From Stenotrophomonas maltophilia (GTDB taxonomy: Bacteria; Pseudomonadota; Gammaproteobacteria; Xanthomonadales; Xanthomonadaceae), in NCBI RefSeq assembly GCF_039555535.1, contig NZ_CP154630.1, positions 4,043,001-4,107,000 of the forward strand: 64,000 nt of DNA. The letters run 5' to 3'. A program made the translations under genes and the position numbers. Positions 3,349 to 16,762 of the stretch are shown piece by piece (position 1 is the first letter of the stretch; each line of letters begins with the position of its first letter). Under the pieces are notes generated by a model. That model saw only the letters and a program-made list of their open reading frames with translations, was not told where the DNA came from and made no database searches.

Positions 3349-5991
3349 ATGTACTGGCTCAGCCGCCACCGGATGCTGTTGCTGACCATCGCGGTGATGG
3401 TCGGTGGCACCGTGCTGTCTGCAGTGGCCGCCGGCCACTACGCATGGCGGCGTGCCCTGGGCGACGAAAGCAGCCAGGTGCAACGCCAGCTGCAGCTGTA
3501 TGGCCAGGGCCTGCAGCAGCGCATCGACCGCTTCGGCACGCTGCCGCAGGTGCTGGCGCTGGACCCGGACCTGTTGCACGCCCTGCGCGTGCCGCCCTCG
3601 CCCGCCGAACGGCAGCGGCTGAACCTCAAGCTGCAACGCGCCAATGAGGTCACCCGCGCCTCGACCCTGACCCTGGTCGGCCACGACGGCGTGGCGGTGG
3701 CGGCCAGCAACTGGGACCAGCCGACCACCAATGTCGGCGAGAACTACAGCTACCGCCCGTATTACCGGCAGGCGCTGGCCAAGGGCCGTGGCCGCTTCTA
3801 CGGCATCGGCATGACCACCGGCGTACCCGGCTATTACCTGTCGCAGGCCATCGAGGAAGGTGGCCAGCGGCTGGGCGTGGTGGTGATCAAGGTCGAGCTG
3901 TCGGCGCTGGAACAGGAATGGCTGAGCAGCCCGGACGTGGTGCTGGCCAGTGACGACCACGATGTGGTCTTCCTGGCCAACCGAGACAACTGGCGCTACC
4001 GCCTGCTGCGCCCGTTGGGCGCCGACGAGCGCCGCGAAATGCTCGATGCCCGCCAGTACGCCGACCGTGCGCTGCAGCCACTGCGTGCGCGTACCGAGGA
4101 CGTGCTGGCCGACGGCGGCCGCATGGTGCGCCTGCTGGATCCCGCATTGCCGCAGCCGATGCTGTGGCAGAGCCTGGCGCTGCCTGTGGAAGACTGGAAC
4201 CTGCATCTGCTGCACGATGCCAGTGCAGCCACTTCTGCCGGTCGCGCGGCCGCACTCACCGGCGGTGCTGCGTGGCTTGCACTGGGCTTCCTGGTGCTGT
4301 TCGTGCAGCAGCGCCGGCGTCTGGCCAAGCACCGCCTGCGCAGTCGCCGCGAGCTCGAAACCCTGCTCAAGCAGCATGCGCAGGAACTGCGCACCGCACA
4401 GGATGGCCTGCTGCAGGCTGCAACCGACGCTGACAGCGGCCTCAGCCGCAGCCTGGCGCACCTGCCGCAGGGCGTGGTGGTGATCGACCGCGAACTGCGG
4501 CTGGTGGCATGGAATGCACGCTATCTCGAACTGTTCCGGTTCCCGGCAGACCTGGTGCGCGTCGGCCGTCCAATCGAGGAACTGTTCCGTTTCAATGCAC
4601 GCCGTGGCCTGCTCGGTCCGGGCCCGGTGGACGAGGCCATCGAGCGTCGCCTGAACCACCTGCGCAGCGGCCGCCCGCACATGCGCGAAAGCGAGAAGGA
4701 CGACGGCACGGTGCTGGAGATCCGTGGCAACCCGCTGCCCGACGGCGGCTTCGTCACCAGCTACGCCGACATCACCAGCTACAAGAATGCCGCGCGCGAA
4801 CTGCGTTCGCTGGCCGACGCGCTGGAGCACCGCATCGCCGAGCGCACCCGTGACCTGGACGAAGCACGCCGCGAAGCCGAACAGGCCAACCGCTACAAGA
4901 CCCGCTTCGTCGCCTCGGCGGTGCACGACCTGCTGCAACCGCTCAACGCCGCGCGCATGTTCGTCTCGGTGCTGCGCGGCAAACTGAGCGACCCGGCACA
5001 GCAGCAGACCAGCGACCACATCGACGCTGCACTGGCCGCGCAGGACGCGATCCTCAACAGCCTGCTGGACATCGCGCGACTGGAATCGGGCAGCCTGCCC
5101 ACGCGCGTGCAGGCGTTCCGGCTGGGCCCGCTGCTGCAGACGCTGGCGCGCGAGTTCGGCATCGCCGCACAGTCACGCGGGCTGGTGGTCGACTGGGTCG
5201 ATACTGCTGCGGTGGTGGTCAGCGATGAAGCGCTGCTGCGGCGCATCCTGCAGAACTTCCTGTCCAACGCATTGCGCTACAGCGAACGCGGCCGCGTGCT
5301 GCTCGGCTGCCGCCGCCGCGACGGTCTGCTGTGGATCGAAGTGCACGACCAGGGCCCGGGCATTCCCGATGCGCTGCAGGGCGAGATCTTCGAGGAATTC
5401 CGCCGCCTGCACGACGGCCAGCAGCGCGGCGCCGGCCTTGGCCTGGCGATCGTCGACCGCATCGGCCGCCTGCTTGGCCATCCGATCCGGCTGCGCTCGC
5501 AGCTGGGCCAAGGCAGCGTGTTCGCGGTTGGCGTGCCTTTCGGCGACGCCAGCGCGATTCCAGCCACCGCGCCAGCCCCGGTACTGGCGCAGGAGCCGGC
5601 GGCGGACAATCCACTGCGCGGGCGCCGTGTGTGGGTGATCGATGACGATCCGCACGTCTGCGCGGCCAGCCGCGCCCTGCTGGAACGCTGGGGCTGCGAG
5701 GTGATGCTGGCCGATGGCCCGCAGGCCGCGTTGCTGCTGGCCAGTGTCGAAACGGTGCCGGATCTGGTGCTGCTGGATGTACGCATGGGCGATCACCATG
5801 GCCCGGTGCTGTACGAGACGCTGGCCGAGCTGTGGCAGGCGCGCCCACCGGTGGTGCTGGTGACCGCCGAGCGTGATGCGGGGCTGCGCGAGATGGCTGC
5901 GGAGCGCGGTTGGGGGATGATGGCCAAGCCGGTGAAGCCGCCGGCGCTGCGGGCGTTGATGAGTCAGTTGCTGATCCGGCATCGCGGGTAG
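3349..5991 (+). CDS. Hybrid sensor histidine kinase with DctB-like sensor region
   Basis: An 880-residue membrane kinase. Order of parts: a transmembrane segment (about 8-28); a periplasmic double-Cache-like sensor with the motifs GENYSYRPYYRQAL and RGRFYGIGMTTGVPGYYLS, close to those of the DctB C4-dicarboxylate sensor; a second membrane segment (about 290-315); a coiled linker; a PAS domain (about 365-480); a dimerisation domain with the phospho-acceptor in SAVHDLLQPL (His526); an ATPase domain with NALRYS and GAGLGLAIV; and a C-terminal receiver whose acceptor is Asp810 (LLDVRMGD). It probably senses a carboxylate and passes phosphate to the LuxR-type regulator on the opposite side of the convergent gap. 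Its stop codon lies inside a 38-bp arm of a large inverted repeat. Domain calls are confident; the ligand is inferred. Confidence 0.92.
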   Translation: MYWLSRHRMLLLTIAVMVGGTVLSAVAAGHYAWRRALGDESSQVQRQLQLYGQGLQQRIDRFGTLPQVLALDPDLLHALRVPPSPAERQRLNLKLQRANEVTRASTLTLVGHDGVAVAASNWDQPTTNVGENYSYRPYYRQALAKGRGRFYGIGMTTGVPGYYLSQAIEEGGQRLGVVVIKVELSALEQEWLSSPDVVLASDDHDVVFLANRDNWRYRLLRPLGADERREMLDARQYADRALQPLRARTEDVLADGGRMVRLLDPALPQPMLWQSLALPVEDWNLHLLHDASAATSAGRAAALTGGAAWLALGFLVLFVQQRRRLAKHRLRSRRELETLLKQHAQELRTAQDGLLQAATDADSGLSRSLAHLPQGVVVIDRELRLVAWNARYLELFRFPADLVRVGRPIEELFRFNARRGLLGPGPVDEAIERRLNHLRSGRPHMRESEKDDGTVLEIRGNPLPDGGFVTSYADITSYKNAARELRSLADALEHRIAERTRDLDEARREAEQANRYKTRFVASAVHDLLQPLNAARMFVSVLRGKLSDPAQQQTSDHIDAALAAQDAILNSLLDIARLESGSLPTRVQAFRLGPLLQTLAREFGIAAQSRGLVVDWVDTAAVVVSDEALLRRILQNFLSNALRYSERGRVLLGCRRRDGLLWIEVHDQGPGIPDALQGEIFEEFRRLHDGQQRGAGLGLAIVDRIGRLLGHPIRLRSQLGQGSVFAVGVPFGDASAIPATAPAPVLAQEPAADNPLRGRRVWVIDDDPHVCAASRALLERWGCEVMLADGPQAALLLASVETVPDLVLLDVRMGDHHGPVLYETLAELWQARPPVVLVTAERDAGLREMAAERGWGMMAKPVKPPALRALMSQLLIRHRG

Positions 5992-6062
5992 TTTCCAGCC
6001 AACGGCACAGCCCCTCGTGGGTGGTGTCTGGCTGGTCGCGGAAGGCAGGATTGCTGAGGGCT

Positions 6063-6164
6063 GGCCGGGTGGGTGGGCAGTGCGGGGACGCCGTGAACCC
6101 ATCCATGGGGGCTTGGCCGCGGCATCCTTGCCGCGGACACCCCGCACTGCCCACCCACCCGGCC
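6063..6164 (+). repeat. Modular palindrome, copy A
   Basis: Outer arms of 25 bp are perfectly complementary (6063-6087 and 6140-6164). They enclose a core (gacgccgtgaaccc, then atccatgggggcttg) followed by an inner 8-bp hairpin (6117-6124 with 6129-6136). The same core layout recurs at 16401-16506 and, reversed, at 16657-16762, although the outer arm sequences differ completely. Confidence 0.8.
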
Positions 6165-6242
6165 GCTGACAGTTCACGGATGTTCTCCACCCACGGAGAA
6201 GAAAAAGAAGATCAAAAGCGGTCGCGCGCTGCGCTTGCTCGT

Positions 6243-6310
6243 GTAGAGCCGAGCCCATGCTCGGCTTCGCGGGCCGACCGGAAAGCAGCCGAGCGTGGGC
6301 TCGGCTCTAC
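6243..6310. repeat. SMAG-type GTAG repeats, facing pair
   Basis: A forward GTAGAGCCGAGC... copy (6243-6266) and a reverse copy (6287-6310) face each other across a 20-bp spacer, so the pair can fold into one long hairpin. They match the GTAG palindromes (SMAG) known to be abundant in S. maltophilia. Confidence 0.85.
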
Positions 6311-6460
6311 AAAAGGCGGCCTGCCAGGCTGCTTTTTCTTTTGATCTTCTTTTTCTTATCCGTGGCGTCCACCGCGCACCCCACCCGACCGGCTCACTCG
6401 CAGCTTTTGCTTTCAACGCCCCCAAAACCACCCACGAGGGGCTGCGCCGTTGGCTGGAAA

Positions 6461-7111
6461 CTACAACCCGATGCCGGCGTCGCCTTCCGGCTCCAGCGCC
6501 TTCACCAGCACCGCCGCCTGTGTGCGGCTGTGGCATTCGAGTTTCTTCAGGATCGCGGTGACATGCACCTTCACCGTGTTCTCGGCCAGGCCCAACGTAT
6601 AGGCGATCTGCTTGTTCAGCAGGCCATCGGCCAGGCACAGCAGCACCCGGAACTGCTGCGGCGTCAGCTGCGCCAGGCGGCTGGCCAGCAGCGCATCGGC
6701 CTCGGAACGCTCCGCCGCCATCGCCGGGAACCACAGGCCACCGTCGAGCACCGACTGCACCGCCTCGCCGATGGTCTCGGCCGGGGCCGACTTCGGGATG
6801 AAACCGGCTGCGCCGAACTGCTGGGCACGGCGGATCACCCGCGGATGGTCGTTGGACGAGAGAATCACCACCGGGATGTCCGGATGCGAGCCACGCACGT
6901 GCAGCAGCGCGGAAAAACCATGCGCACCGGGCATGGTCAGGTCCAGCAGCACCAGATCGACCTCGGGCTGCGCATCAAGGGCTTCGGCCAGCGCATCGGC
7001 ACTGGCCACCTCGCGCACCTGTGCCAGCGGCAGGCTCTGCCGCAAGGACTGCACCACCGCCGAACGCAGCAGCGGATGGTCATCGGCGATCAGGATGGTG
7101 TATTCGCTCAT
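6461..7111 (-). CDS. LuxR/NarL-family response regulator
   Basis: A 216-residue regulator with an N-terminal receiver (acidic pocket DD at residues 10-11, phospho-acceptor Asp57 in LVLLDLTMPG, conserved Lys in IPKSAP) and a C-terminal LuxR helix-turn-helix (LTPQQFRVLLCLADGL, then AENTVKVHVTAILKKL). It converges on the hybrid kinase at 3349-5991, which lacks its own DNA-binding output, so the two very likely form a phosphorelay controlling dctA and the adjacent porin. The stop codon sits in the right arm of the large inverted repeat. The start ATG at 7111 gives the standard length. Kinase pairing is inferred from position. Confidence 0.92.
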   Translation of the reverse strand: MSEYTILIADDHPLLRSAVVQSLRQSLPLAQVREVASADALAEALDAQPEVDLVLLDLTMPGAHGFSALLHVRGSHPDIPVVILSSNDHPRVIRRAQQFGAAGFIPKSAPAETIGEAVQSVLDGGLWFPAMAAERSEADALLASRLAQLTPQQFRVLLCLADGLLNKQIAYTLGLAENTVKVHVTAILKKLECHSRTQAAVLVKALEPEGDAGIGL

Positions 7112-7140
7112 GCCGACATTGTACGGGCAGCAAACCGCAT

Positions 7141-7164
7141 CCGCCGGGCATGGCCCGGCGCTAC
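7141..7164 (-). repeat. SMAG-type GTAG repeat
   Basis: A reverse-orientation GTAGCGCCGGGCC... palindrome with a 9-bp stem lies in the short gap between the LuxR regulator start and the solute-binding protein stop. The same variant recurs at 50383-50406. Confidence 0.75.
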
Positions 7165-7171
7165 CAGCACA

Positions 7172-8227
7172 TCAGCGCCCTGCCGGCTCTACGCTGCTGC
7201 GCCAGGCGTCGAGGAACTGGCGGCGCTTGAGCGCGTCCAGGTACACCAGCAGGCCGGGGCCAAGCTGGATCGGGCGGCGGCTACGGCCCGGTGCGTCTTC
7301 GCCCCGTGCGCTGCCGGTCACGATCGGCATCAGCCGCGCTTCGCGCGACAGCACCTGCTGGCCACGCGGCGAGAGCAGGTAATCGAGGAAGCGCCGCGCC
7401 TCTTCCGGGTGCGGGCCGGTGCGCGGTATGACTGCGGTGCGCAGTACCACCAGCGTGTAGTCCTCGGGCTCGACGATGGCCAGCGGCGCGCCGGCATCGA
7501 CACGGGCCTGCGCGTAGGAGCCGAGCACGTTGTAGACCAGTGACAACTGGCCGTTGGCGACCTGGTCCAGCAGCACGCCGGTGCGTTCCTCGCGCACCAC
7601 GTCGTTGTCGCCGAGCGCACCCAGCAACGCACCTGCGATGCTACCGCGCTGTGCGTCCTGGGTGGCCAGCAGGTAGCCGACGCTGCTGCGCTCGATGTCA
7701 TAGGTGCCGACCCTGCCGCGCAGCGGTGCGCCTTCGGCACGCAAGCGATCAAGCAGCTGGCGGCGCGTATGCGGCACCTTTGCCGCGGCCAGCGCGCGGG
7801 TGTTGTAGACCATCACCACCGGCTCGTAGCTGATGCCGAAGGCCTCGTTGCGCCACTGCGCCCAGGCCGGCAGTGCGGCAGTCTGCGCCGAGCGATGCGG
7901 CAGTGCGTGGCCATCGTTGACCAGCTTGGTCTGCAGGTCCATGCCGCTGGAGATCAGCAGGTCCGGCGATGCCGGTCCGCCGCGGTCGTGCAGGTAACGC
8001 GCGTACAGGTCCTGGGTGATGATGTCCTCGTACACCACTTCAGTGCCCGGATGCAGGCGCTGGTAGTCGGCGATGACCACCGCGAACACTTCGATGTCGG
8101 TGGTGCCGTGGATGCGCAGCTGCGCGGTGACCGCTCCCTGTGCGGGGAAACGGCGCACATCGCCGGGCGCGGCCAGCACCGGCAAGGCCAGCAGCAAGGC
8201 AACGGCAGCGGCGAACAGGCGGATCAT
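7172..8227 (-). CDS. Periplasmic solute-binding protein (iron/PgtC-like family), no permease
   Basis: A 351-residue secreted protein with a signal peptide (residues 1-19, ending PVLAA) and an extracellular solute-binding fold: an early IHGTTDIEVF strand, then YEDIITQDLYARYL, and the hinge segment FGISYEPVVMVYN. It resembles substrate-binding proteins of the iron(III)/thiamine cluster and the PgtC phosphoglycerate regulatory protein. It is the last gene of a three-gene operon; its ATG overlaps the kinase stop codon (ATGA). No transporter subunits are nearby, so it probably presents a ligand to the kinase rather than feeding an ABC importer. That role is inference from context. Confidence 0.85.
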   Translation of the reverse strand: MIRLFAAAVALLLALPVLAAPGDVRRFPAQGAVTAQLRIHGTTDIEVFAVVIADYQRLHPGTEVVYEDIITQDLYARYLHDRGGPASPDLLISSGMDLQTKLVNDGHALPHRSAQTAALPAWAQWRNEAFGISYEPVVMVYNTRALAAAKVPHTRRQLLDRLRAEGAPLRGRVGTYDIERSSVGYLLATQDAQRGSIAGALLGALGDNDVVREERTGVLLDQVANGQLSLVYNVLGSYAQARVDAGAPLAIVEPEDYTLVVLRTAVIPRTGPHPEEARRFLDYLLSPRGQQVLSREARLMPIVTGSARGEDAPGRSRRPIQLGPGLLVYLDALKRRQFLDAWRSSVEPAGR

Positions 8228-9615
8228 GAACTGCTCCGTGGCAGACGGATGGTGGCGATCAGCCCGCCCTGCGGGCGGTTGCTGAGGTCGATGCGGCCGC
8301 CATGGCTGTCGACCACGCGCTTGACGATAGCCAGGCCCAGCCCGGCGCCGCCGGACGGCGCGCCTTCGCCACGGGCGAAGCGCTCGAACACGCGTTCGGC
8401 ATCAGCGGGCGCGATGCCTGCACCATGGTCGGCGATGGTCAGCACCGCCTGCCCGCCTTCCACGGTCAACGCGATCTGCAACGGACCGTCGCCGCCGTAC
8501 TTCAGCGCGTTGTCGACCAGATTCTTGATCGCCTCGCGCAGCAGCAGCGCGTCGCCGTGCACCTGCACCGGCTCGGCGGTCATCGCAAGTTGCACGCGCG
8601 GTGCCGGGCCGGCCTGCGGCAGGGCTTCATGCAGGGCCTGGTGCACGGTTTCGGCCAGGTCCACCGCCGCAAAGCGCTGCAGGTGCGAACGATGGATCAC
8701 GCTGGCATCGCTGAGCAGCTGGTTGAGCAGGCGGCTCATGTGCGTGGCATTGCGTTCGATCGCCTGCAGGCTGCGGCGCATGTCGTCCGGATCGTCATCA
8801 TCCAGCGCCAGCTGTGCCTGCGCGCGCAGCGCCGCCAGCGGCGTTCGCATCTGGTGCGCGGCCTCGGCCATGAACGCACGCAGCGTTTCGTTGCTGCTGG
8901 ACAGGCGTTCCATGAAGCGGTTCAGTGCCGCCACCATCTGGTCCATCTCGCGCGGCACGCGCGCGTCCAGCGGCTTCAGGTCGGACGGTTCGCGCCGCGA
9001 CAGCTCGCGCTCCACCCGTACCAGCGGGCGGAACGCGCGATGCACGCCGAACGCCACCAGCGCCAGCAACAGGCCGGACAGCACACCGATCGCCAACAGC
9101 GCACGGTTGACCATGTCCTGCGCCACGGCTTCGCGGGCACGCCGGGTCTGGCCCACCTGCACCTGCACCTCGCCCTGCGCCGAGGCCGCGGCGAAACTGC
9201 GGCTGACCACCACGAAGCGCACCGTCTCACCGCTGTAGGCAGCATCGAACAACTGCGGCTGCGTACCGGGCCGACGCGGCGGCGACGGCAGATCGGCATA
9301 ACCGGTGATCAGGTTGCCGCGGCTGTCGGCGACGCGATAGAACACGCGATCTTCTGGCGCCATCGCCAGCAGATCCAGCGCCGCATACGGCAGATCCACC
9401 TGCCACTGCCCATCGACCAGGGCGACCGAATCGGCGATGGACAACGCCGAAGACACCAGCAGGTGATCGTAGGAACGGTTTGCCGCACGCTGGCCATAGT
9501 CGCGCGCGGCGAACAGCAGCGCCACCGCGAACACCGCCAGCAACGCACCGAGGTAGAGCAGCAGCGTGCGCCGCAGCGAGCCCGGCGCCGCGTTCGCAGC
9601 GCGTACGTCAGCCAT
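8224..9615 (-). CDS. TctE-like sensor histidine kinase
   Basis: A 463-residue inner-membrane kinase: membrane segment about 16-36, a periplasmic sensor region with the pattern of 2CSK_N/TctE kinases (SYDHLLVSSALSIADSV), a second membrane segment at about 170-195, a HAMP-like linker, a dimerisation helix with AAHQMRTPLAALRAQ (His254), and an ATPase domain with NLVDNALKYG and GAGLGLAIVKRVV. The ATG at 9615 overlaps the upstream regulator stop by 8 nt (ATGGCTGA), and its own stop overlaps the next ATG by 4 nt, so the three genes are translationally coupled. TctDE systems control tricarboxylate uptake in other proteobacteria. The divergent porin and CitMHS transporter are therefore plausible targets. 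Confidence 0.92.
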   Translation of the reverse strand: MADVRAANAAPGSLRRTLLLYLGALLAVFAVALLFAARDYGQRAANRSYDHLLVSSALSIADSVALVDGQWQVDLPYAALDLLAMAPEDRVFYRVADSRGNLITGYADLPSPPRRPGTQPQLFDAAYSGETVRFVVVSRSFAAASAQGEVQVQVGQTRRAREAVAQDMVNRALLAIGVLSGLLLALVAFGVHRAFRPLVRVERELSRREPSDLKPLDARVPREMDQMVAALNRFMERLSSSNETLRAFMAEAAHQMRTPLAALRAQAQLALDDDDPDDMRRSLQAIERNATHMSRLLNQLLSDASVIHRSHLQRFAAVDLAETVHQALHEALPQAGPAPRVQLAMTAEPVQVHGDALLLREAIKNLVDNALKYGGDGPLQIALTVEGGQAVLTIADHGAGIAPADAERVFERFARGEGAPSGGAGLGLAIVKRVVDSHGGRIDLSNRPQGGLIATIRLPRSSS

Positions 9616-10297
9616 CGGCGTCGGCGCTGCCATCACTGGCTTCCAGCAGGTAGCCGACACCGCGCACGGTGGTGATGCGCAGCGGTGCGCCCGCCAGTTT
9701 CTTCCGCAGGCGACCGACGTACAGTTCGATGGCATTCGGACCGGCTTCGTCGTCGAAGCCGAACAGGCCGTTGCCGATCTCGTCCTTGCCCACTACCTGG
9801 CCCATACGGCCGACCAGGATCTCCAGCAGGCGGTATTCGCGGTTGGGCAGCTCGATCGGTTCGCCGTCGAGCGTGACCCGGTGCGCCGCGTTGTCGAACT
9901 GGAAGCCACCGACCTGCACCACCTCGCTTGCCTGGCCACGCGCACGCCGCAGCAGCACGCGGCAGCGCGCCTCGAACTCGCGGAAATCGAACGGCTTGCC
10001 GAGGTAGTCGTCGGCGCCGACATCCAGCGCCTGTACGCGGTCCTCGATGCCGTCCCGTGCAGTCAGCATCAGCACCGGCGTGCTGTCGCCGCGCTCGCGC
10101 ATGCCGGCCAGCACGCGCAGGCCGTCGAGCTTGGGCAGGCCGATATCCAGCACTACCAGGTCGAAGCTCTGGTAGCGCAGCACGCTGGCGGCGGCCAGGC
10201 CGTCGGCCTGCCAGTCCACGGCATGGCCACTGCGACGCATGCGACGGATGATCGCATCGGCCAGATCCGGGTTGTCTTCGACCAGCAGCAGGCGCAT
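9608..10297 (-). CDS. TctD/OmpR-family response regulator
   Basis: A 229-residue regulator with a receiver domain (MRLLLVEDNPDLADAI; phospho-acceptor Asp51 in LVVLDIGLPKLDG; Lys in GKPFDFREF) and a winged-helix OmpR-type DNA-binding domain (PNREYRLLEILVGR, then VGRLRKKL and TTVRGVGYLL). It is the first gene of the operon regulator-kinase-binding protein and overlaps the kinase by 8 nt. The start at 10297 is the conserved MRLLLVED start; an upstream in-frame extension is unrelated. It faces the porin/CitMHS operon across a 196-bp control region, which also contains a GC hairpin at 10350-10370. Confidence 0.93.
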   Translation of the reverse strand: MRLLLVEDNPDLADAIIRRMRRSGHAVDWQADGLAAASVLRYQSFDLVVLDIGLPKLDGLRVLAGMRERGDSTPVLMLTARDGIEDRVQALDVGADDYLGKPFDFREFEARCRVLLRRARGQASEVVQVGGFQFDNAAHRVTLDGEPIELPNREYRLLEILVGRMGQVVGKDEIGNGLFGFDDEAGPNAIELYVGRLRKKLAGAPLRITTVRGVGYLLEASDGSADADG

Positions 10298-10493
10298 GGG
10301 CACGACGGTGGGAGGGGAAGCGAATGCTACCGCATGGCGCCGGGTCCGCCCGCCGGGGCGCGCCCGGCGGCCTTTTACGCTGCACCGCACAATCCGTTGA
10401 CAGGACGATGACAGCTTGCCCGACCCAGACTGCGGCCGCGCACCGTCCGGTGCCCACGATTGCCGCGCGCCTGGCGCGCACCTGGGAGGGTTT

Positions 10494-11669
10494 GTGGAAT
10501 TCACGTTTGCCTGGCGGCGTCCTGCCGCCATGATGGCGCTGGCTGCGCTGTCGGCGCCGGCCTTCGCTGCCGAAGACGACCGTCCGGTCACCGCCACTCT
10601 CGGTGGCCGCCTGCACCTGGACTTCGCCACCTTCGACAACGACAACCGCGGCACCCCGAACAAGGACGACACCGAAATCCGCCGTGCGTGGGTTGACGTG
10701 TCTGGCAAGTTCTTCGTAGTCGACTACAAGCTGGAGGCCGATTTCTCCGGCGACCGCGTCGAGGCCAAGGACGTGTACCTGGCGCGCAGCTTCGGCAAGG
10801 CCGGCAAGCTCACCGTCGGCCAGTTCAAGCAGTACTTCTCGCTGGATGACCGCACCAGCTCCAACTACGGCAGCTTCCTGGAGCGCGGCAATGCCGGCAC
10901 CACGCTGGCGCCGCTGTACCGTCTGGGCGCGTCGTGGCAGGCCAATCCGGGTGACTTCACCTGGGCCGCCAGCATCTACAGCCTGGAAAGCATCGACGCC
11001 TGGCAGGTGAAGGGGCGTGCTGCCGGTGGCCGTGTCACCTGGGCGCCCTCGCCCGCCGATGGCGACGTGCTGCACCTGGGCCTGTCGCTGGCCCGCGAGG
11101 CCTATGACAATCCGGGCGCGAACGGCGTTCCGGGCCTGAAGATCCGTCCGCGCCCGGCCGGCCACCTGTCCGACAACAGCCGCCTGACCCTGGTCGACTT
11201 CTCGGCCGGCCGCGATACCGACGTCAACAAATGGTCGCTGGAGTACGCGCAGGTGCGCGGCCCGTTGTCGTGGCAGGGCGAGTTCAGTGGCGCCACCTTC
11301 GATGACGGTGCGCAGCGCGGCGACGTGATGGCCGCCTACGGCATGGTCAGCTGGTTCGTCACCGGCGAAAGCCGCGCCTACGACCGCAAGACCGGCCGCT
11401 TCGCGCGGGTGAAGGATATCCGCCACAAGGCCGGCGCGTTCGAAGTGGCGCTGCGCTACGACCAGATGTGGGGCGCGCGGCATCTCGATGGTGCGCCGGA
11501 CCTGCGCCGCGGCAGCACCGAGGCGTGGACGCTGGGTGGCAACTGGTACCTGCGCGACAACCTGCGCTTCATGCTCAACGTGATCGAAAGCCGCAACCGC
11601 GACCGCCTTGCCGGGGTGACGGTGGACCGCACGCGCGCGGTCACCGGCCGCCTGCAGTACGACTTCTAA
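10494..11669 (+). CDS. Porin, phosphate-selective porin O/P family (citrate locus)
   Basis: A 391-residue beta-barrel porin related to the one at 2113-3282; both share the late segment GGNWYL/GANWYL, the motif VTGESRAY/LTGESRPY and an aromatic C-terminus (LQYDF here). I chose the GTG at 10494 because GGGAGG lies 6-7 nt upstream and the resulting N-terminus is a good signal peptide (positive region, then MMALAALSAPAFA). An ATG at 10416 would add an implausible leader. It is followed after about 70 bp by a CitMHS transporter, so it probably admits citrate or related acids through the outer membrane under control of the divergent TctDE-like pair. Confidence 0.85.
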   Translation: MEFTFAWRRPAAMMALAALSAPAFAAEDDRPVTATLGGRLHLDFATFDNDNRGTPNKDDTEIRRAWVDVSGKFFVVDYKLEADFSGDRVEAKDVYLARSFGKAGKLTVGQFKQYFSLDDRTSSNYGSFLERGNAGTTLAPLYRLGASWQANPGDFTWAASIYSLESIDAWQVKGRAAGGRVTWAPSPADGDVLHLGLSLAREAYDNPGANGVPGLKIRPRPAGHLSDNSRLTLVDFSAGRDTDVNKWSLEYAQVRGPLSWQGEFSGATFDDGAQRGDVMAAYGMVSWFVTGESRAYDRKTGRFARVKDIRHKAGAFEVALRYDQMWGARHLDGAPDLRRGSTEAWTLGGNWYLRDNLRFMLNVIESRNRDRLAGVTVDRTRAVTGRLQYDF

Positions 11670-11741
11670 GCCCGAATTCCCGGGCATGCCGCCCGGGCCC
11701 CTTCCACTCCCCCACGTCCTGTATTCGCAAGGAGTCCGCAG

Positions 11742-13838
11742 ATGATGCTGAGCATCCTCGGCTTTGGCATGGTCATTACATTCATGTACTTGATCATGAG
11801 CAAGCGGCTGTCGCCGCTGGTGGCCCTGATCACCATTCCCATCCTGTTCGCGCTGATCGGCGGCTTCGGCGCCGGCATCGACGAGATGATGCTGGAGGGC
11901 ATCAAGAAGATCGCGCCGACCGGCGTGATGCTGATGTTCGCCATCCTCTACTTCGGCGTGATGATCGATGCCGGCCTGTTCGATCCGCTGGTTCGGGTGA
12001 TCCTGCGCTTCGTCAAGGGCGATCCGATGAAGATCGTGCTCGGCACCGCGGTGCTGGCGATGCTGATCTCGCTGGACGGCGACGGCTCGACCACCTACAT
12101 GATCACCGTCTCGGCGATGCTGCCGCTGTACCAGCGCCTCGGCATGAACGCGCTGAACATGACCTGCGTGACCATCCTGGCCGGCGGCGTGATGAACCTG
12201 ACCCCGTGGGGCGGCCCGACCGCACGTGCGGCCACCGCGCTGCACGTGGATCCGGCTGATGTGTTCGTGCCGCTGATCCCGTCGATGGTGATCGCCTGTG
12301 CCGGTGTGCTGCTGCTGGCCTGGTACCTGGGCCTGAAGGAACGCCGTCGCCTTGGCGTGGTGACCCTGCCCAAGGGCGGCAGCTGGATGGACAACAGCGT
12401 GTCCGACGACAGCAATCCGCTGCCGACCGTGGAAGACGCCGAGGACATCAAGCGTCCGAAGCTGCTGTGGGTCAACCTGGCCCTGACCGTGGCACTGATG
12501 ACCGCGCTGATCATCGGCGTGCTGCCGATGCCGGTGCTGTTCATGGTCGGCTTCGCCATCGCGCTGGTGATCAACTACCCGAACCTGGCCGAGCAGCGCC
12601 GCCGCGTGGTCAACCATGCAGGCAACGTGCTGTCGGTGGTGTCGCTGATCTTCGCCGCGGGCATCTTCACCGGCATCCTCAACAACACCGGCATGGTCGA
12701 AGCCATGTCGCACAGCTTCCTGGCGGTGATTCCGGAATCGTGGGGCCCGTACCTGGCGGTGATCACCGCCGTGGCGTCGATGCCGTTCACCTTCTTCATG
12801 TCCAACGACGCCTTCTACTTCGGCGTGCTGCCGATCCTGTCCGAGGCCGCCGGCAACTACGGCATCACCCCGGTGGAGATGGCGCGCGCCTCGCTGGCCG
12901 GCCAGCCGGTGCACCTGCTCAGCCCGCTGGTGCCCTCTACCTACCTGCTGGTGGGCCTGGCCAAGGTCGAATTCGCCGACCACCAGAAGTTCACCCTGAA
13001 GTGGGCCATCGCCATCTCGATGCTGCTGATGATCGGCAGCCTGCTGTTCGGCCTGTATCCCCTCGCCGCCTGCCCCCTTGCCAAGGAGCCTTCTGCAATG
13101 ACGCTTCGAATCGCTTACGTCACCAGTGGAATGGGCAGTGTCGGCACTGCCATCTGCCAGAGCCTGGCCCGCAGCGGCCACACCGTGGTTGCCGGCTGCG
13201 CGCCGAACTCGCCGCGCAAGGCCAACTGGCTGCGCGAGCAGCGCGAACAGGGTTTCGATTTCATTGCCTCCGAGGGCAACGCCACCGACTGGGCCTCGAC
13301 CAGCGCCGCGTTCGCCAAGGTGCGTGCCGAGGTCGGCGAGGTGGACGTGCTGGTCAACAATTCCGGCGGCAGCCGCGATCTGCTGTTCCGGCAGATGACG
13401 GTGGAAGACTGGAACGCGGTGATCGCGTCCAACCTCAATTCGCTGTTCAACCTGACCAAGCAGGTGGTCGATGGAATGGCCACGCGTGGCTGGGGCCGCA
13501 TCATCAACATCGGTTCGGTCAGCGCCCACAAGGGCCAGATCGGGCAGGTGAACTACGCCACCGCCAAGGCCGCGATGCACGGTTTCAGCCGTGCACTGGC
13601 TGCCGAAGTTGCGTCGCGCGGGGTCACCGTCAACACGCTGTCGCCGGGCTACATTGCCAGCCAGGCGATCAGCAGCTTCCCGCCGGACGTGCTGGACCGG
13701 CTGGCCGCCTCGGTACCGGTGCGCCGCCTCGGTCGCCCGGAAGAAGTGGCCGGCCTGTGCGCGTGGCTGGCCTCGGACGAAGCCTCGTACGTGACCGGCG
13801 CCGACTATCCGGTCAACGGCGGCCTGTACATGGGTTGA
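11742..13838 (+). CDS. CitMHS-type citrate transporter continuous with a PhaB-type reductase (698-residue reading frame)
   Basis: Residues 1 to about 440 form a CitMHS-family metal-citrate:proton symporter (LGFGMVITFMYLIMSKRLSP, the motif SLDGDGSTTYMI, FMSNDAFYFGVLP, and a final segment LLMIGSLLFGLYPLA). No stop codon follows; codons for AACPLAKEPSA lead directly into the ATG at 13098 of a complete short-chain reductase. The join contains AAGGAG placed normally for that internal ATG, so the reductase can be made separately. Shifting the frame by one base near 13065-13080 would end the transporter at a TGA overlapping the internal ATG, the usual coupled arrangement. The fusion may therefore reflect a stop-codon loss, an indel, or a sequencing error. 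The transporter function itself is confident. Confidence 0.85.
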   Translation: MMLSILGFGMVITFMYLIMSKRLSPLVALITIPILFALIGGFGAGIDEMMLEGIKKIAPTGVMLMFAILYFGVMIDAGLFDPLVRVILRFVKGDPMKIVLGTAVLAMLISLDGDGSTTYMITVSAMLPLYQRLGMNALNMTCVTILAGGVMNLTPWGGPTARAATALHVDPADVFVPLIPSMVIACAGVLLLAWYLGLKERRRLGVVTLPKGGSWMDNSVSDDSNPLPTVEDAEDIKRPKLLWVNLALTVALMTALIIGVLPMPVLFMVGFAIALVINYPNLAEQRRRVVNHAGNVLSVVSLIFAAGIFTGILNNTGMVEAMSHSFLAVIPESWGPYLAVITAVASMPFTFFMSNDAFYFGVLPILSEAAGNYGITPVEMARASLAGQPVHLLSPLVPSTYLLVGLAKVEFADHQKFTLKWAIAISMLLMIGSLLFGLYPLAACPLAKEPSAMTLRIAYVTSGMGSVGTAICQSLARSGHTVVAGCAPNSPRKANWLREQREQGFDFIASEGNATDWASTSAAFAKVRAEVGEVDVLVNNSGGSRDLLFRQMTVEDWNAVIASNLNSLFNLTKQVVDGMATRGWGRIINIGSVSAHKGQIGQVNYATAKAAMHGFSRALAAEVASRGVTVNTLSPGYIASQAISSFPPDVLDRLAASVPVRRLGRPEEVAGLCAWLASDEASYVTGADYPVNGGLYMG
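13098..13838 (+). CDS. phaB: Acetoacetyl-CoA reductase-like short-chain dehydrogenase (PhaB family)
   Basis: A 246-residue NAD(P)-dependent reductase, here considered as an independent translation product within the longer frame. It has the glycine-rich nucleotide motif (TSGMGSVGTAIC), the NNSGGSRD strand (NNAG in most relatives), the catalytic Ser in INIGSVSAHKGQ, and Tyr/Lys in NYATAKAAMHGF. Whole-length similarity is to PhaB (ASEGNATDW, NLNSLFNLTKQVVDGM, NTLSPGYIA, a C-terminal VNGGLYMG). PhaB reduces acetoacetyl-CoA to (R)-3-hydroxybutyryl-CoA. No polymer synthase is adjacent, so its physiological substrate is uncertain. AAGGAG precedes the ATG by 8 nt. A strong terminator follows. Confidence 0.85.
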   Translation: MTLRIAYVTSGMGSVGTAICQSLARSGHTVVAGCAPNSPRKANWLREQREQGFDFIASEGNATDWASTSAAFAKVRAEVGEVDVLVNNSGGSRDLLFRQMTVEDWNAVIASNLNSLFNLTKQVVDGMATRGWGRIINIGSVSAHKGQIGQVNYATAKAAMHGFSRALAAEVASRGVTVNTLSPGYIASQAISSFPPDVLDRLAASVPVRRLGRPEEVAGLCAWLASDEASYVTGADYPVNGGLYMG

Positions 13839-13884
13839 GCCCGTCTCCACGCAATGCGTGGACCGCCTCCCCCACGGAGTGCGC

Positions 13885-13930
13885 GGGGCCGGTGAACCTT
13901 TGCTTGCGAGGGGGATCCGGCCCCTTTTTT
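13885..13930 (+). terminator. Intrinsic terminator after the citrate operon
   Basis: An 8-bp GC-rich stem (ggggccgg at 13885-13892 with ccggcccc at 13917-13924) is followed directly by six T residues (13925-13930). This is a classical rho-independent terminator ending the porin-transporter-reductase operon. Confidence 0.85.
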
Positions 13931-14064
13931 CATTCGGCTGCCAGACCTGCGCCGGTCCTGCACCGTTCGTTGGTTTTTCGTAAAGAAGGTTTCATGTTCC
14001 GTTCGCATAGTGGCCAAGCACCGCGCACGCGTGCCGGTGACCACCCCCAATGCAACGGACCACC

Positions 14065-16359
14065 ATGCAGACCCGATACCTGACGATCGCCGTGGCGATC
14101 GCGCTCTCCGCCGCCAGCGCCCACGCTGCCACCACCGCCGATACCGGCGCCAGCACCGATGCCGCGCTGAGCGCGCAGACGCTGGATACCGTCTCCGTGA
14201 TCGGCCAGGGCGAGACCCGCCAGGTGCAGCGCATCACCACCGTCGACAAGCAGGTGCTGCCGCCGGGTACCAGTGGCCAGAAGATCCTCGACCGCCTGCC
14301 GGGCGTGTCGGTGCAGTCCAACGATGCCTTCGGTGCCAATGAGGAATCGCAGACCATCAGCCTGCGTGGCTTCGACAAGAGCCGGCTGGGTTACACGCTC
14401 GATGGCATTCCGCTGGGTGACAACAGCTACGGCAACTACAACGGCCTGAGCATCGCCCGCGCGATCATCGCCGAGAACCTGGCTGGCGCCGAACTGTCGC
14501 AGGGCATCGGCTCGCTGGGCGTGGCCTCGACCAGCAACCTGGGCGGCACCATCCAGTATTTCTCGATGGACCCGTCCACCGAATTCGGTGGACGCGCCAG
14601 CGTCACCGTCGGCGACAACAACCAGCGCCGTGGCTACCTGCGCGTGGATACCGGCGACCTCAACGGCTTCTCGGCCTATGTGTCCGGCGTGCACCAGGAC
14701 CAGGACATGTGGGCCGCGCCGTACCAGAACCAGACCACCCGCCAGTTCAATGCCAAGGCGGTGTGGAATGTCGGCGACCACCGCTTCGGTGCGTTCGTGG
14801 CCACCTCGCGCGCCAGCCAGGCCAACTACGCCTACCTGTCCAAGGACATGCTGGCCCGCGGCCTGGGCTATGACTGGAACATCTACGCACCGGACTGGGA
14901 TCGCGCCGTCGCTGCCGCGTACTGCGCACCGGGCACGCTTGACCGCAGCAAGTGCAAGTTCAGTGGCGGCGTCACCAGCATCGACGATGCCTACTACCAG
15001 AGCCGTGCGCTGCGCGACGACAACCTGTACTCGGTTGATGCCGACCTGCGTCTGGGTGAGCAGGGTCGCCTGAAGCTGCTGGCCTACCACCATGACAACC
15101 GTGGTCAGGGCCACTGGTGGGCACCGGGCCAGCCGTCCTACCCGGGCACCGACAAGATGCTGCCGATCTCGATCCGCAGCACCAACTACACGATCAACCG
15201 CGATGGCCTGACCGCCGCGCTGTCGTGGACGGTGGGCATCCACGAACTGGAGGCCGGGCTGTGGTACGAGCAGAACGACCATAACGTCTCGCGCAACTTC
15301 TACTACATCAGCGGCCCGTTCCTGGACGACCTGTACCTGAAGAACCCGGACCGCCTGCTGTTCAACCAGGACTTCGACATCCGCACGCGCCAGTTCTACG
15401 TGCAGGACCGCATGCGCTTCCTGGACCAGCGCCTGACTGTGGACGTGGGCATCAAGAGCCCCAACACCCGCATGCGCGCCACTGCCAAGCCGGGCGTGGA
15501 AACCAGCATCGCCTCGGGCACGCTGACCGCCAGGGAATCGGTGCTGCCGCAGGTAGGCCTGGGCTTCAAGCTCAACGCCAACAACGAGTTGTTCGCCTCG
15601 TACGCCGAGAACATCGCCGCCTTCGTCGGTGGCGGCAGCGGTGGCCCGCTGCAGGTGTCGCCGGAATCGTTCGCGGCCAGCGCCGGCCTGGAGCCGGAGA
15701 AGTCCAAGAGCCTTGAAGCCGGCTTCCGTACCTTTGGCGAGAAGTACCAGGCCTCGATCGCCGCCTACAACGTGAAGTTCGACAACCGCCTGCTGTCGCT
15801 GAATCCGTGTTCCAGCATCGAAGTCGGTACGCGTCCGGAGTGCGTGACGCGCTTCATCAACGTCGGTTCGGTGAAGAGCCACGGTGCGGAGCTGACCTTC
15901 ATCCTCAAGCCGATCGACGGCCTGCAGTGGTACAACGCGCTGTCCTGGAACAAGACCACCTACGAGGATGACTACACCTCGGGCGGCGCCATCGTGCCGG
16001 TAGCCGGCAAGATCACGGTGGATACGCCGCAGCGCATGGCCTCCAGTGAAATCAGCTGGAACCGCGACGGCTTCTTCGCCAGCCTGCGTGCCAAGTACAC
16101 CGGCAAGCGCTACTACACCTACACCAACGACCAGTCTGTGCCGGGCGTGACCACCTTCGACGCCGGTGCGGGCTACGACTTCGGCCCGGGCCTGGGCCTG
16201 CGCAACGTGCGGGTGTCGTTGAATGCGACCAACCTGACCAACAAGCGCTATGCGGGCCAGCTGAGTTCGTTCGCACCGACCGATCCGAAGGGCACGCGGT
16301 ATGCGATCCATGCGAGCGCGCCGCGGCAGCTGTTCATGACGGTGGCGGCGGAGTTCTAA
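14065..16359 (+). CDS. TonB-dependent outer-membrane receptor
   Basis: A 764-residue receptor with a signal peptide (MQTRYLTIAVAIAL...SAHA), a TonB-box-like stretch (LDTVSVIGQG), a plug domain (GQKILDRLPGVSVQS, SLRGFDKSRLGYTLDGIPLG), and a beta-barrel ending in VAAEF. It contains cysteines in CAPGTLDRSKCKF and CSSIEVGTRPEC that may form loop disulfides. The ligand is not evident: no siderophore or vitamin genes adjoin, and I see no Fur-box-like site upstream. The alternative ATG at 14050 adds five residues; neither start has a good ribosome site. Because it follows the citrate operon, it might handle a metal-citrate complex, but that is speculation. Confidence 0.88.
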   Translation: MQTRYLTIAVAIALSAASAHAATTADTGASTDAALSAQTLDTVSVIGQGETRQVQRITTVDKQVLPPGTSGQKILDRLPGVSVQSNDAFGANEESQTISLRGFDKSRLGYTLDGIPLGDNSYGNYNGLSIARAIIAENLAGAELSQGIGSLGVASTSNLGGTIQYFSMDPSTEFGGRASVTVGDNNQRRGYLRVDTGDLNGFSAYVSGVHQDQDMWAAPYQNQTTRQFNAKAVWNVGDHRFGAFVATSRASQANYAYLSKDMLARGLGYDWNIYAPDWDRAVAAAYCAPGTLDRSKCKFSGGVTSIDDAYYQSRALRDDNLYSVDADLRLGEQGRLKLLAYHHDNRGQGHWWAPGQPSYPGTDKMLPISIRSTNYTINRDGLTAALSWTVGIHELEAGLWYEQNDHNVSRNFYYISGPFLDDLYLKNPDRLLFNQDFDIRTRQFYVQDRMRFLDQRLTVDVGIKSPNTRMRATAKPGVETSIASGTLTARESVLPQVGLGFKLNANNELFASYAENIAAFVGGGSGGPLQVSPESFAASAGLEPEKSKSLEAGFRTFGEKYQASIAAYNVKFDNRLLSLNPCSSIEVGTRPECVTRFINVGSVKSHGAELTFILKPIDGLQWYNALSWNKTTYEDDYTSGGAIVPVAGKITVDTPQRMASSEISWNRDGFFASLRAKYTGKRYYTYTNDQSVPGVTTFDAGAGYDFGPGLGLRNVRVSLNATNLTNKRYAGQLSSFAPTDPKGTRYAIHASAPRQLFMTVAAEF

Positions 16360-16400
16360 GTCAGAAGCGGGCGCTGCGGCGCATTGCGTATTTCTGCATG

Positions 16401-16506
16401 GCGCGGGTAGGCAGGCCCATGCAGGACACGCCGTAAACCCGTCCTTGGGGGCTCGATGGCGCCATCCATGGCGCCAACGGTCCTGCATGGGCCTGCCTAC
16501 CCGCGC
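16401..16506 (+). repeat. Modular palindrome, copy B
   Basis: Perfect 27-bp outer arms (16401-16427 and 16480-16506) enclose the core gacacgccgtaaacccgtcc followed by ttgggggctcg, then an inner hairpin with 8-bp arms (16457-16464 and 16469-16476). Layout and core match copy A at 6063-6164; arm sequences do not. It lies just after the TonB receptor stop in a convergent gap. Confidence 0.8.
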
Positions 16507-16557
16507 CCGACAATTTCCTGCGCCGGCGCGGAGGCAATGGAAAGCAAGAGCAAAAGC

Positions 16558-16596
16558 AAAAGCAGAGAGCCGGGCATTGCCCGGCTCTCTGCTTTT
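16558..16596. terminator. Strong bidirectional terminator hairpin
   Basis: A perfect 18-bp stem (16558-16575 with 16579-16596) with a 3-nt loop, starting in AAAA and ending in TTTT, lies midway between two convergent genes. It is flanked by a further 10-bp inverted repeat (gacaatttcc at 16509-16518, ggaaattgtc at 16645-16654). It is expected to stop transcription from both sides. Together with copies B and C it fills the 444-bp gene-free gap from 16360 to 16803. Confidence 0.85.
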
Positions 16597-16656
16597 CAAG
16601 CTCTTCAAGCGCAATCCCTCTGGTGGACTGCTGGCCGTCTCGCGGGAAATTGTCTG

Positions 16657-16762
16657 GAGCGGGAGGCTTGCGCTGGCCAGGACCGTCCACGGCATGGATG
16701 CCGTGGCCGAGCCTACAGGGACGTACTTGCGGCGTGTCCTGGCCAGCGCAAGCCTCCCGCTC
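16657..16762 (-). repeat. Modular palindrome, copy C (reverse orientation)
   Basis: Perfect 27-bp outer arms (16657-16683 and 16736-16762) enclose an inner hairpin (16687-16694 with 16699-16706) and, read on the minus strand, the core gacacgccgcaagtacgtcc then ctgtaggctcg. It is the third copy of the family in this window and points toward copy B across the central terminator. Confidence 0.8.

Follow-up and report, generated by a model that had tools for sequence, protein, structure and literature searches.

A dispersed Gammaproteobacterial palindromic element with two ANGGAN hexaloops, a predicted CsrA/RsmA-binding element

Three copies of a palindromic element lie in the window, by which we mean the whole 64,000-nucleotide stretch of Stenotrophomonas maltophilia DNA that was analyzed, and all three are flanked by convergent genes as predicted by our own gene caller. 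Copy 1 occupies positions 6063..6164 (outer arms 6063-6087 and 6140-6164), copy 2 positions 16400..16507 (arms 16400-16427 and 16480-16507) and copy 3 positions 16657..16762 (arms 16657-16683 and 16736-16762), and their arms of 25, 28 and 27 bp, respectively, contain no mismatches. A sequence-only reading of this DNA had reported three copies with a common layout and perfect arms, which we could confirm at these positions in the orientations +, + and - on the strand used there. The core pattern matched the window three times (0.02 matches expected), and the model R1 matched copy 1 at 6151-6076 on the minus strand (88.4 bits), copy 2 at 16491-16416 on the minus strand (93.7 bits) and copy 3 at 16672-16747 on the plus strand (87.8 bits). 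Between copies 2 and 3, at the centre of their +- pair (16508..16656), there is a terminator-like hairpin that is bidirectional and has both A and T tracts. Copy 1 is enclosed by a symmetric composite of ~480 bp (5988-6466) with inverted ends (GTAGTTTCCAGCCAACGG...CCGTTGGCTGGAAACTAC), the first GTAG of which shares bases with the stop codon (TAG) of the gene upstream.

Where the sequence-only reading had recognized a single inner hairpin, there are two, both of which carry an ATCC-type loop on the strand that it used. On that strand the element, which is ~100 bases long, is laid out as arm, AC, hairpin 1, short link, hairpin 2, ACG or ACA, and arm, with arms mostly of 23-28 bp in the S. maltophilia genome, and its fold is a three-way junction. 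Hairpin 1 consists of 3 bp, a 5-nt bulge, a further 3 bp and a 6-nt loop, and hairpin 2 often of ~7 bp and a 6-nt loop. As RNA of that strand the window copies fold at -85 to -90 kcal/mol (folding z -10.6 to -10.9), and none of 200 shuffles folded as well. However, it is the opposite strand that gives meaning to the fixed parts: there each inner hairpin presents an ANGGAN hexaloop closed by a C-G pair, and the loop centres are ~23 nt apart in the standard layout. The ANGGAN strand is the minus strand for copies 1 and 2 and the plus strand for copy 3. In copy 1, hairpin 1 (6090..6112) has the hexaloop AUGGAU at 6101-6106 with a C-G closing pair and the 5-nt bulge, and hairpin 2 (6117..6136) has AAGGAU at 6124-6129. 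The corresponding loops of copy 2 are AAGGAC at 16441-16446 (hairpin 1, 16430..16452) and AUGGAU at 16464-16469 (hairpin 2, 16457..16476), and those of copy 3 are AGGGAC at 16717-16722 (hairpin 1, 16711..16733), which lies inside UACAGGGACGUA and is near the SELEX consensus for CsrA, and AUGGAU at 16694-16699 (hairpin 2, 16687..16706).

The sequence-only reading had set a search for further copies as a test of its claim, and the family proved not to be limited to the window: at up to three mismatches the core matched the 4.83-Mb chromosome 136 times (71 forward, 65 reverse), compared with one match for the reversed control. Sixty-six stretches were fetched around listed copies, giving 1.04 Mb together with the window, and of the 128 core matches that these contained at up to four mismatches we retained the 124 with no more than two. 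Arms of at least 15 bp were found in 116 of the 124 copies, and 62 of those 116 have perfect arms. Arms reach 22 bp or more in 108 copies, of which 90 group into four clusters by their arms (of 37, 29, 15 and 9 copies) and 18 are singletons, one of the latter belonging to the largest cluster in a shifted register. The three window copies are all singletons, so that the proposal that arms are entirely different between copies stood for the window and failed for the family. GACA occurs within 14 nt past the second arm in 102 of the 116 copies of the S. maltophilia genome, and GTAG at either end in none of them, as anticipated when the element was declared distinct from SMAG repeats. By eye, low-complexity GCAACA/GCAACG tracts precede many copies in this genome.

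The conservation of the loops was assessed mainly in hairpin 2. The search pattern covers hairpin 1 only and includes its loop, so the conservation of the hairpin 1 loop is partly by construction; hairpin 2 was scored by a best-stem search that was blind to the loop letters. Because pairing is possible between the A and the U that bound the loop, best stems that left a 3- or 4-nt loop were opened by one pair to view the hexaloop. A hairpin 2 loop of the form A.GGA. with a C-G closing pair was present in 242 of the 257 copies (from 282 distinct elements) that have arms of at least 10 bp. By group, A.GGA. was found in 111/114 copies of the source genome, 26/27 orthologs of the window locus and 38/39 copies from other Xanthomonadaceae genera, and further out in 17/20 copies from other families of the order and 50/57 from other families of the class. 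A second set drawn from named genomes, which includes Stenotrophomonas and in which 81 of 99 elements were used for the loop count, had A.GGA. in 67 of the 81, with 46 distinct stems and a C-G pair closing 62 of the 67 loops. Several of the non-matching hairpin 2 loops (4 of 15 and 3 of 14 in the two sets) are five-base loops that keep AGGA without the N. Within 75 copies from other genera the fixed letters of the hairpin 2 loop are nearly invariant (A 75, G 75, G 74, A 74), the last position is mostly T or C and position N is free (T38 G26 A8 C3), and the hairpin 2 stem shows three or four Watson-Crick pair types at most positions; thus the loops are far more conserved than the stems. The exact string UACARGGAUGU occurs in 22 of 255 copies. 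The family supplies most of the strong ANGGAN hairpins in the 1.04 Mb sampled, which had been selected for their proximity to copies: listed elements contain 114 of the 121 C-ANGGAN-G hairpins whose stems have 5 bp or more, one shuffle gave a single such hairpin, and some of the other seven look like diverged copies.

Covariation was analyzed in an alignment (A1) of 75 elements, out of 134 in other genera, that were selected because they had the standard layout and arms of 12 bp or longer, a selection that favours helix 1 and leaves helices 2 and 4 unselected for pairing. Paired cells made up 97.4% of this alignment compared with 66.0% after shuffling, and 591 cells were altered on both sides compared with 171, values to be read with the qualification that several rows share a genome and that the shuffles ignore relatedness. 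The covariation score was 0.818 vs 0.211 in the shuffles and collapsed when partners were slid by one column, and so the arms covary beyond chance, the other test that had been set. Counted by pairs, two-sided change was no more frequent than in the shuffles (21 vs 19.9 pairs). The paired cells and two-sided changes bear out the earlier suggestion of selection on the fold together with a fixed central sequence.

The mismatches that remain in the arms are strongly asymmetric. Read on the ANGGAN strand, G.U is far commoner than A.C, with 108:24 distinct events (p 6e-14), and the bias recurs by group, at 38:5 in the S. maltophilia genome and 22:1, 15:2 and 33:16 in the other groups; in the window-locus orthologs alone it is 6:3 and not significant. 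The named-genome set gave raw counts of 78:8, again for G.U on the ANGGAN strand, and the stem of hairpin 2 gave 15:4 alongside 72 other mismatches. Unbiased mutation or strand-symmetric template switching would be expected to give a 1:1 ratio of these mismatches. The explanation that replicative template switching keeps a neutral palindrome perfect, to which the near-perfect arms and the inversion and deletion described below for the window locus would lend themselves, is consequently disfavoured and in our opinion very improbable, as it predicts strand symmetry rather than 108:24 and leaves the conservation of the loops across unrelated stems and families unexplained. We read the wobble bias as one strand folding while single-stranded, which RNA and DNA would fit alike. 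Present transcription does not explain it, since the bias is equally strong whichever strand is in mRNA (raw counts of 13:0 where only the opposite strand should be mRNA and 8:0 where the ANGGAN strand is), and transcription context was not supported as its cause. The raw counts were 17:3 in convergent and 1:2 in divergent contexts.

The 124 copies are arranged as 42 pairs and 40 singles, a few of the latter appearing to have a diverged partner missed by the pattern. The order is +- in all 42 pairs; their cores begin 277-458 bp from one another, and the ANGGAN strands are directed outwards. Among pairs less than 700 bp apart in other genomes, 13 were in the +- arrangement, 3 --, 3 -+ and 1 ++, making the +- order there a strong tendency and no rule. 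In the fetched stretches, by our own gene caller, the genes that flank pairs are convergent in 19 cases, tandem in 18 and divergent in 5, and those that flank singles are convergent in 13, tandem in 25 and divergent in 2. Pairs lie in convergent gaps more often than expected (p 3e-4); the claim that the elements lie between convergent genes was accurate for all three window copies, but strictly convergent placement was rejected for the family, at 19 of 42 pairs. For singles in tandem contexts the orientation is random (13 vs 12), and similarly it was 13 vs 11 in tandem contexts of other genomes, where a crude gene caller placed 51 of 99 copies. SMAG-like repeats occur inside some pair centres.

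The outer gene is directed at the element in 82 of the 124 cases (p 1.4e-4), a preference that, with the enrichment of convergent gaps, would suit a structural RNA 3' end with incidental loops, its stem protecting or ending mRNAs in the manner of REP hairpins. We regard this explanation as improbable. It does not account for the much stronger conservation of loops than of stems; the strand favoured by the wobble bias is the one opposite to the RNA of the upstream gene; the outer gene is directed away in 42 of the 124 cases; and in 116 copies neither end is followed by a T run. An intrinsic terminator was accordingly rejected as a candidate, since none of the 116 copies had 5 or more T in 8 nt after the stem on either strand, and only 8 of 42 pair centres had a terminator-like hairpin (by our own criterion).

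Searches at up to one mismatch found the core in 78 of 398 genomes and 24 of 98 genera of the order (reversed control, 3 matches), in 33 of 229 genomes and 30 of 195 genera of the class (control, 1 match) and in 14 of 299 genomes sampled across the phylum (control, 1 match). The last 14 are 14 of the 87 genomes that belong to the class, and by hand count the core was absent at that stringency from all 212 sampled phylum genomes outside Gammaproteobacteria. Carriers among the matches listed include Stenotrophomonas, Xanthomonas, Marinobacter, Halopseudomonas, Shewanella, Rheinheimera and Methylomicrobium. At 22 of 30 class loci (one per genome) the core has arms of 10 bp or more, some core matches being bare, and no core was found in 5 of 22 sampled genomes of the genus. 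The exact core also occurs in three viral contigs (L380, L381 and L382), and at L255:1342-2706 there are six tandem 227-bp units in a single orientation, each comprising one element and a GTAG-type REP-like hairpin. At the gathering score no Rfam family matched the elements in the window or at six relative loci; the sX9 sRNA of Xanthomonas was matched at L280:437-512 (minus strand), a position outside the element.

Comparison of the copies 2/3 locus among relatives revealed how the element changes in place. Among 61 genomes of the genus, 59 had a match to the 1.2-kb region around the two copies, near full length in 19 of them, including the source genome. The left element is present in all 19 with three arm types (in 10, 4 and 5 genomes), and the right element in 15, as judged by the core pattern, with two arm types (in 6 and 9). 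The arms at this locus are mostly 20-28 bp and nearly complementary, and the layout is constant. As the arm types vary among orthologs that share this layout, the arms have been rewritten or replaced while the architecture was kept. All six left-right combinations of arm types were found. In L142 the right core has diverged with its GGA loops kept; in L147, which is a single assembly, the left element keeps its position but has the reverse orientation to its orthologs, the core having flipped between perfect arms; in L154 the left element has been lost, apparently between short direct repeats; and in L155 both elements are missing.

In Gammaproteobacteria, CsrA/RsmA regulates metabolism and lifestyle on a global scale. 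In the portions of the reports available, the high-affinity CsrA/RsmE site is ANGGAX on a stem (PMC4005645), the CsrA SELEX consensus is RUACARGGAUGU with six-base loops in 44 of 55 ligands, and bridging of two sites by CsrA works at 10-63 nt and best above 18 nt (PMC7652899). By sequence the element has an ANGGAX hexaloop on a stem, and its loop spacing of ~23 nt is inside the 10-63 nt range. We consider it somewhat probable that this dispersed Gammaproteobacterial element is a CsrA/RsmA-binding element, as its sequence predicts, which serves as a decoy or in local control. The selected molecule would then be RNA rather than single-stranded DNA, one CsrA dimer may bridge both loops, and transcripts carrying the ANGGAN strand are predicted to capture CsrA/RsmA, likely as decoys, the effect being either titration of CsrA or local control of the transcript that carries the element. 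Because pairs aim the other strand inwards, a transcript crossing a pair would meet the ANGGAN copy second on either DNA strand, and the ANGGAN copy of a pair would probably be present mainly in read-through RNA. More speculatively, and in our estimation unlikely, the class-wide element may have seeded chromosomes with hundreds of predicted high-affinity CsrA sites that form a distributed CsrA sink, with in-place inversion between the perfect arms switching sites into or out of the local transcript. If binding of this kind were true, it would add an unexpected layer of Csr control and provide a protein partner for intergenic palindromes.

Several observations speak against the CsrA reading. 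The orientation in tandem contexts is random, the wobble bias ignores transcription context, and G591, in which no csrA was detected, carries the core. The long stable stems of the element are a further point, being unlike those of most SELEX winners, which had four or fewer contiguous pairs in the part of the study available (PMC7652899). The gene for CsrA was found in 30 of 33 core-bearing genomes of the class and in 164 of 196 others, a co-occurrence that is not significant (p 0.43). The core-bearing genomes in which csrA was not found are G591 (98% complete, with 7 core matches), G405 (75%) and G496 (67%). GGA motifs alone also prove little, since RsmU, in which all four predicted GGA motifs were changed, was still bound by RsmA and its overexpression phenotype was not abolished, according to the accessible part of the report (PMC7694677).

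The sRNAs that sequester CsrA/RsmA, such as CsrB, RsmX/Y/Z and, in Xanthomonas campestris, RsmU, likewise present several GGA motifs in hairpin loops, the element having two hexaloops of the high-affinity form. In contrast to these single sRNA genes, however, the element occurs as well over a hundred dispersed copies with a long variable closing stem, its binding is predicted, and no promoter of its own was seen. As far as the available text of their paper extends, the authors of RsmU found it only in Xanthomonas, whose sequenced genomes yielded them no homologue of CsrB or RsmX/Y/Z (PMC7694677). None of the titles and abstracts listed by our literature searches named a CsrA-binding repeat family, and six core strings had no match in the full texts searched.

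The evidence against the CsrA reading leaves real room for a mobile single-stranded DNA element, in which the ANGGAN strand would fold as single-stranded DNA for a putative recombinase, with the loop and bulge as recognition marks and G.T tolerated. Much of the natural history of the family is of the kind that such an element would leave: a high copy number with arm clusters common to different copies, a fixed +- pairing like that of terminal repeats (42/42), the tandem array, the in-place inversion in L147 and the loss in L154, and a wobble bias independent of transcription. Even so, we judge it rather unlikely, as left and right arms assort freely at the window locus (six combinations of 3 left and 2 right arm types) and no credible R1 match was found within 1.5 kb of 21 Y1_Tnp genes, the class examined, at 4 loci of the source genome and 17 in four relatives. 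The one weak match near a Y1_Tnp gene scored 15.6 bits (E 0.16) and left 25 model positions on the hairpin 1 side unaligned. We know of no recombinase that reads ANGGAN loops. Integron attC sites have conserved R boxes at their ends, and no common motif was visible by eye at the outer ends of 30 copies from across the class. The ends of MITEs are conserved in sequence. MITEs such as ERIC and NEMIS resemble the element in being small and non-coding with inverted repeats (in part after PMC3733652), but differ in those conserved ends, the arms of the element being its most variable part.

Finally, SMAG/GTAG REPs are intergenic, high-copy, palindromic and often near each other, as is the element, but are 20-40 bp long with a GTAG end, whereas the element is ~100 bp long with two inner hairpins whose loops are conserved. 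An origin from REP/RAYT or TIRYT transposases was rejected for the 21 Y1_Tnp loci tested in five Stenotrophomonas genomes. The TIRs of S. maltophilia TIRYT transposases share with the element self-complementarity and pairing at short distance, and REPs and tyrosine transposases of this species are treated in PMC3733652, of which part was available, so that the element might be supposed to belong to a REP or TIR family already described there. We give this very little credence: two transposase genes of D457 are flanked by repeats that differ in sequence from the element, a self-complementary one (GGGGTCAGATCC...) at 1189182 and a further TIR at 4555490, and the element itself is at neither locus (L384 and L388). 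Because both of these TIR-type loci carry other repeats, the TIR family of PMC3733652, as far as its available part indicates, most likely corresponds to the D457 repeats and not to the element. Self-complementary GGGGTCAGATCC...TCTGACCCC repeats, which flank a Y1 transposase gene in D457 (L384:1295-1335), also occur inside several element pairs of the source genome.
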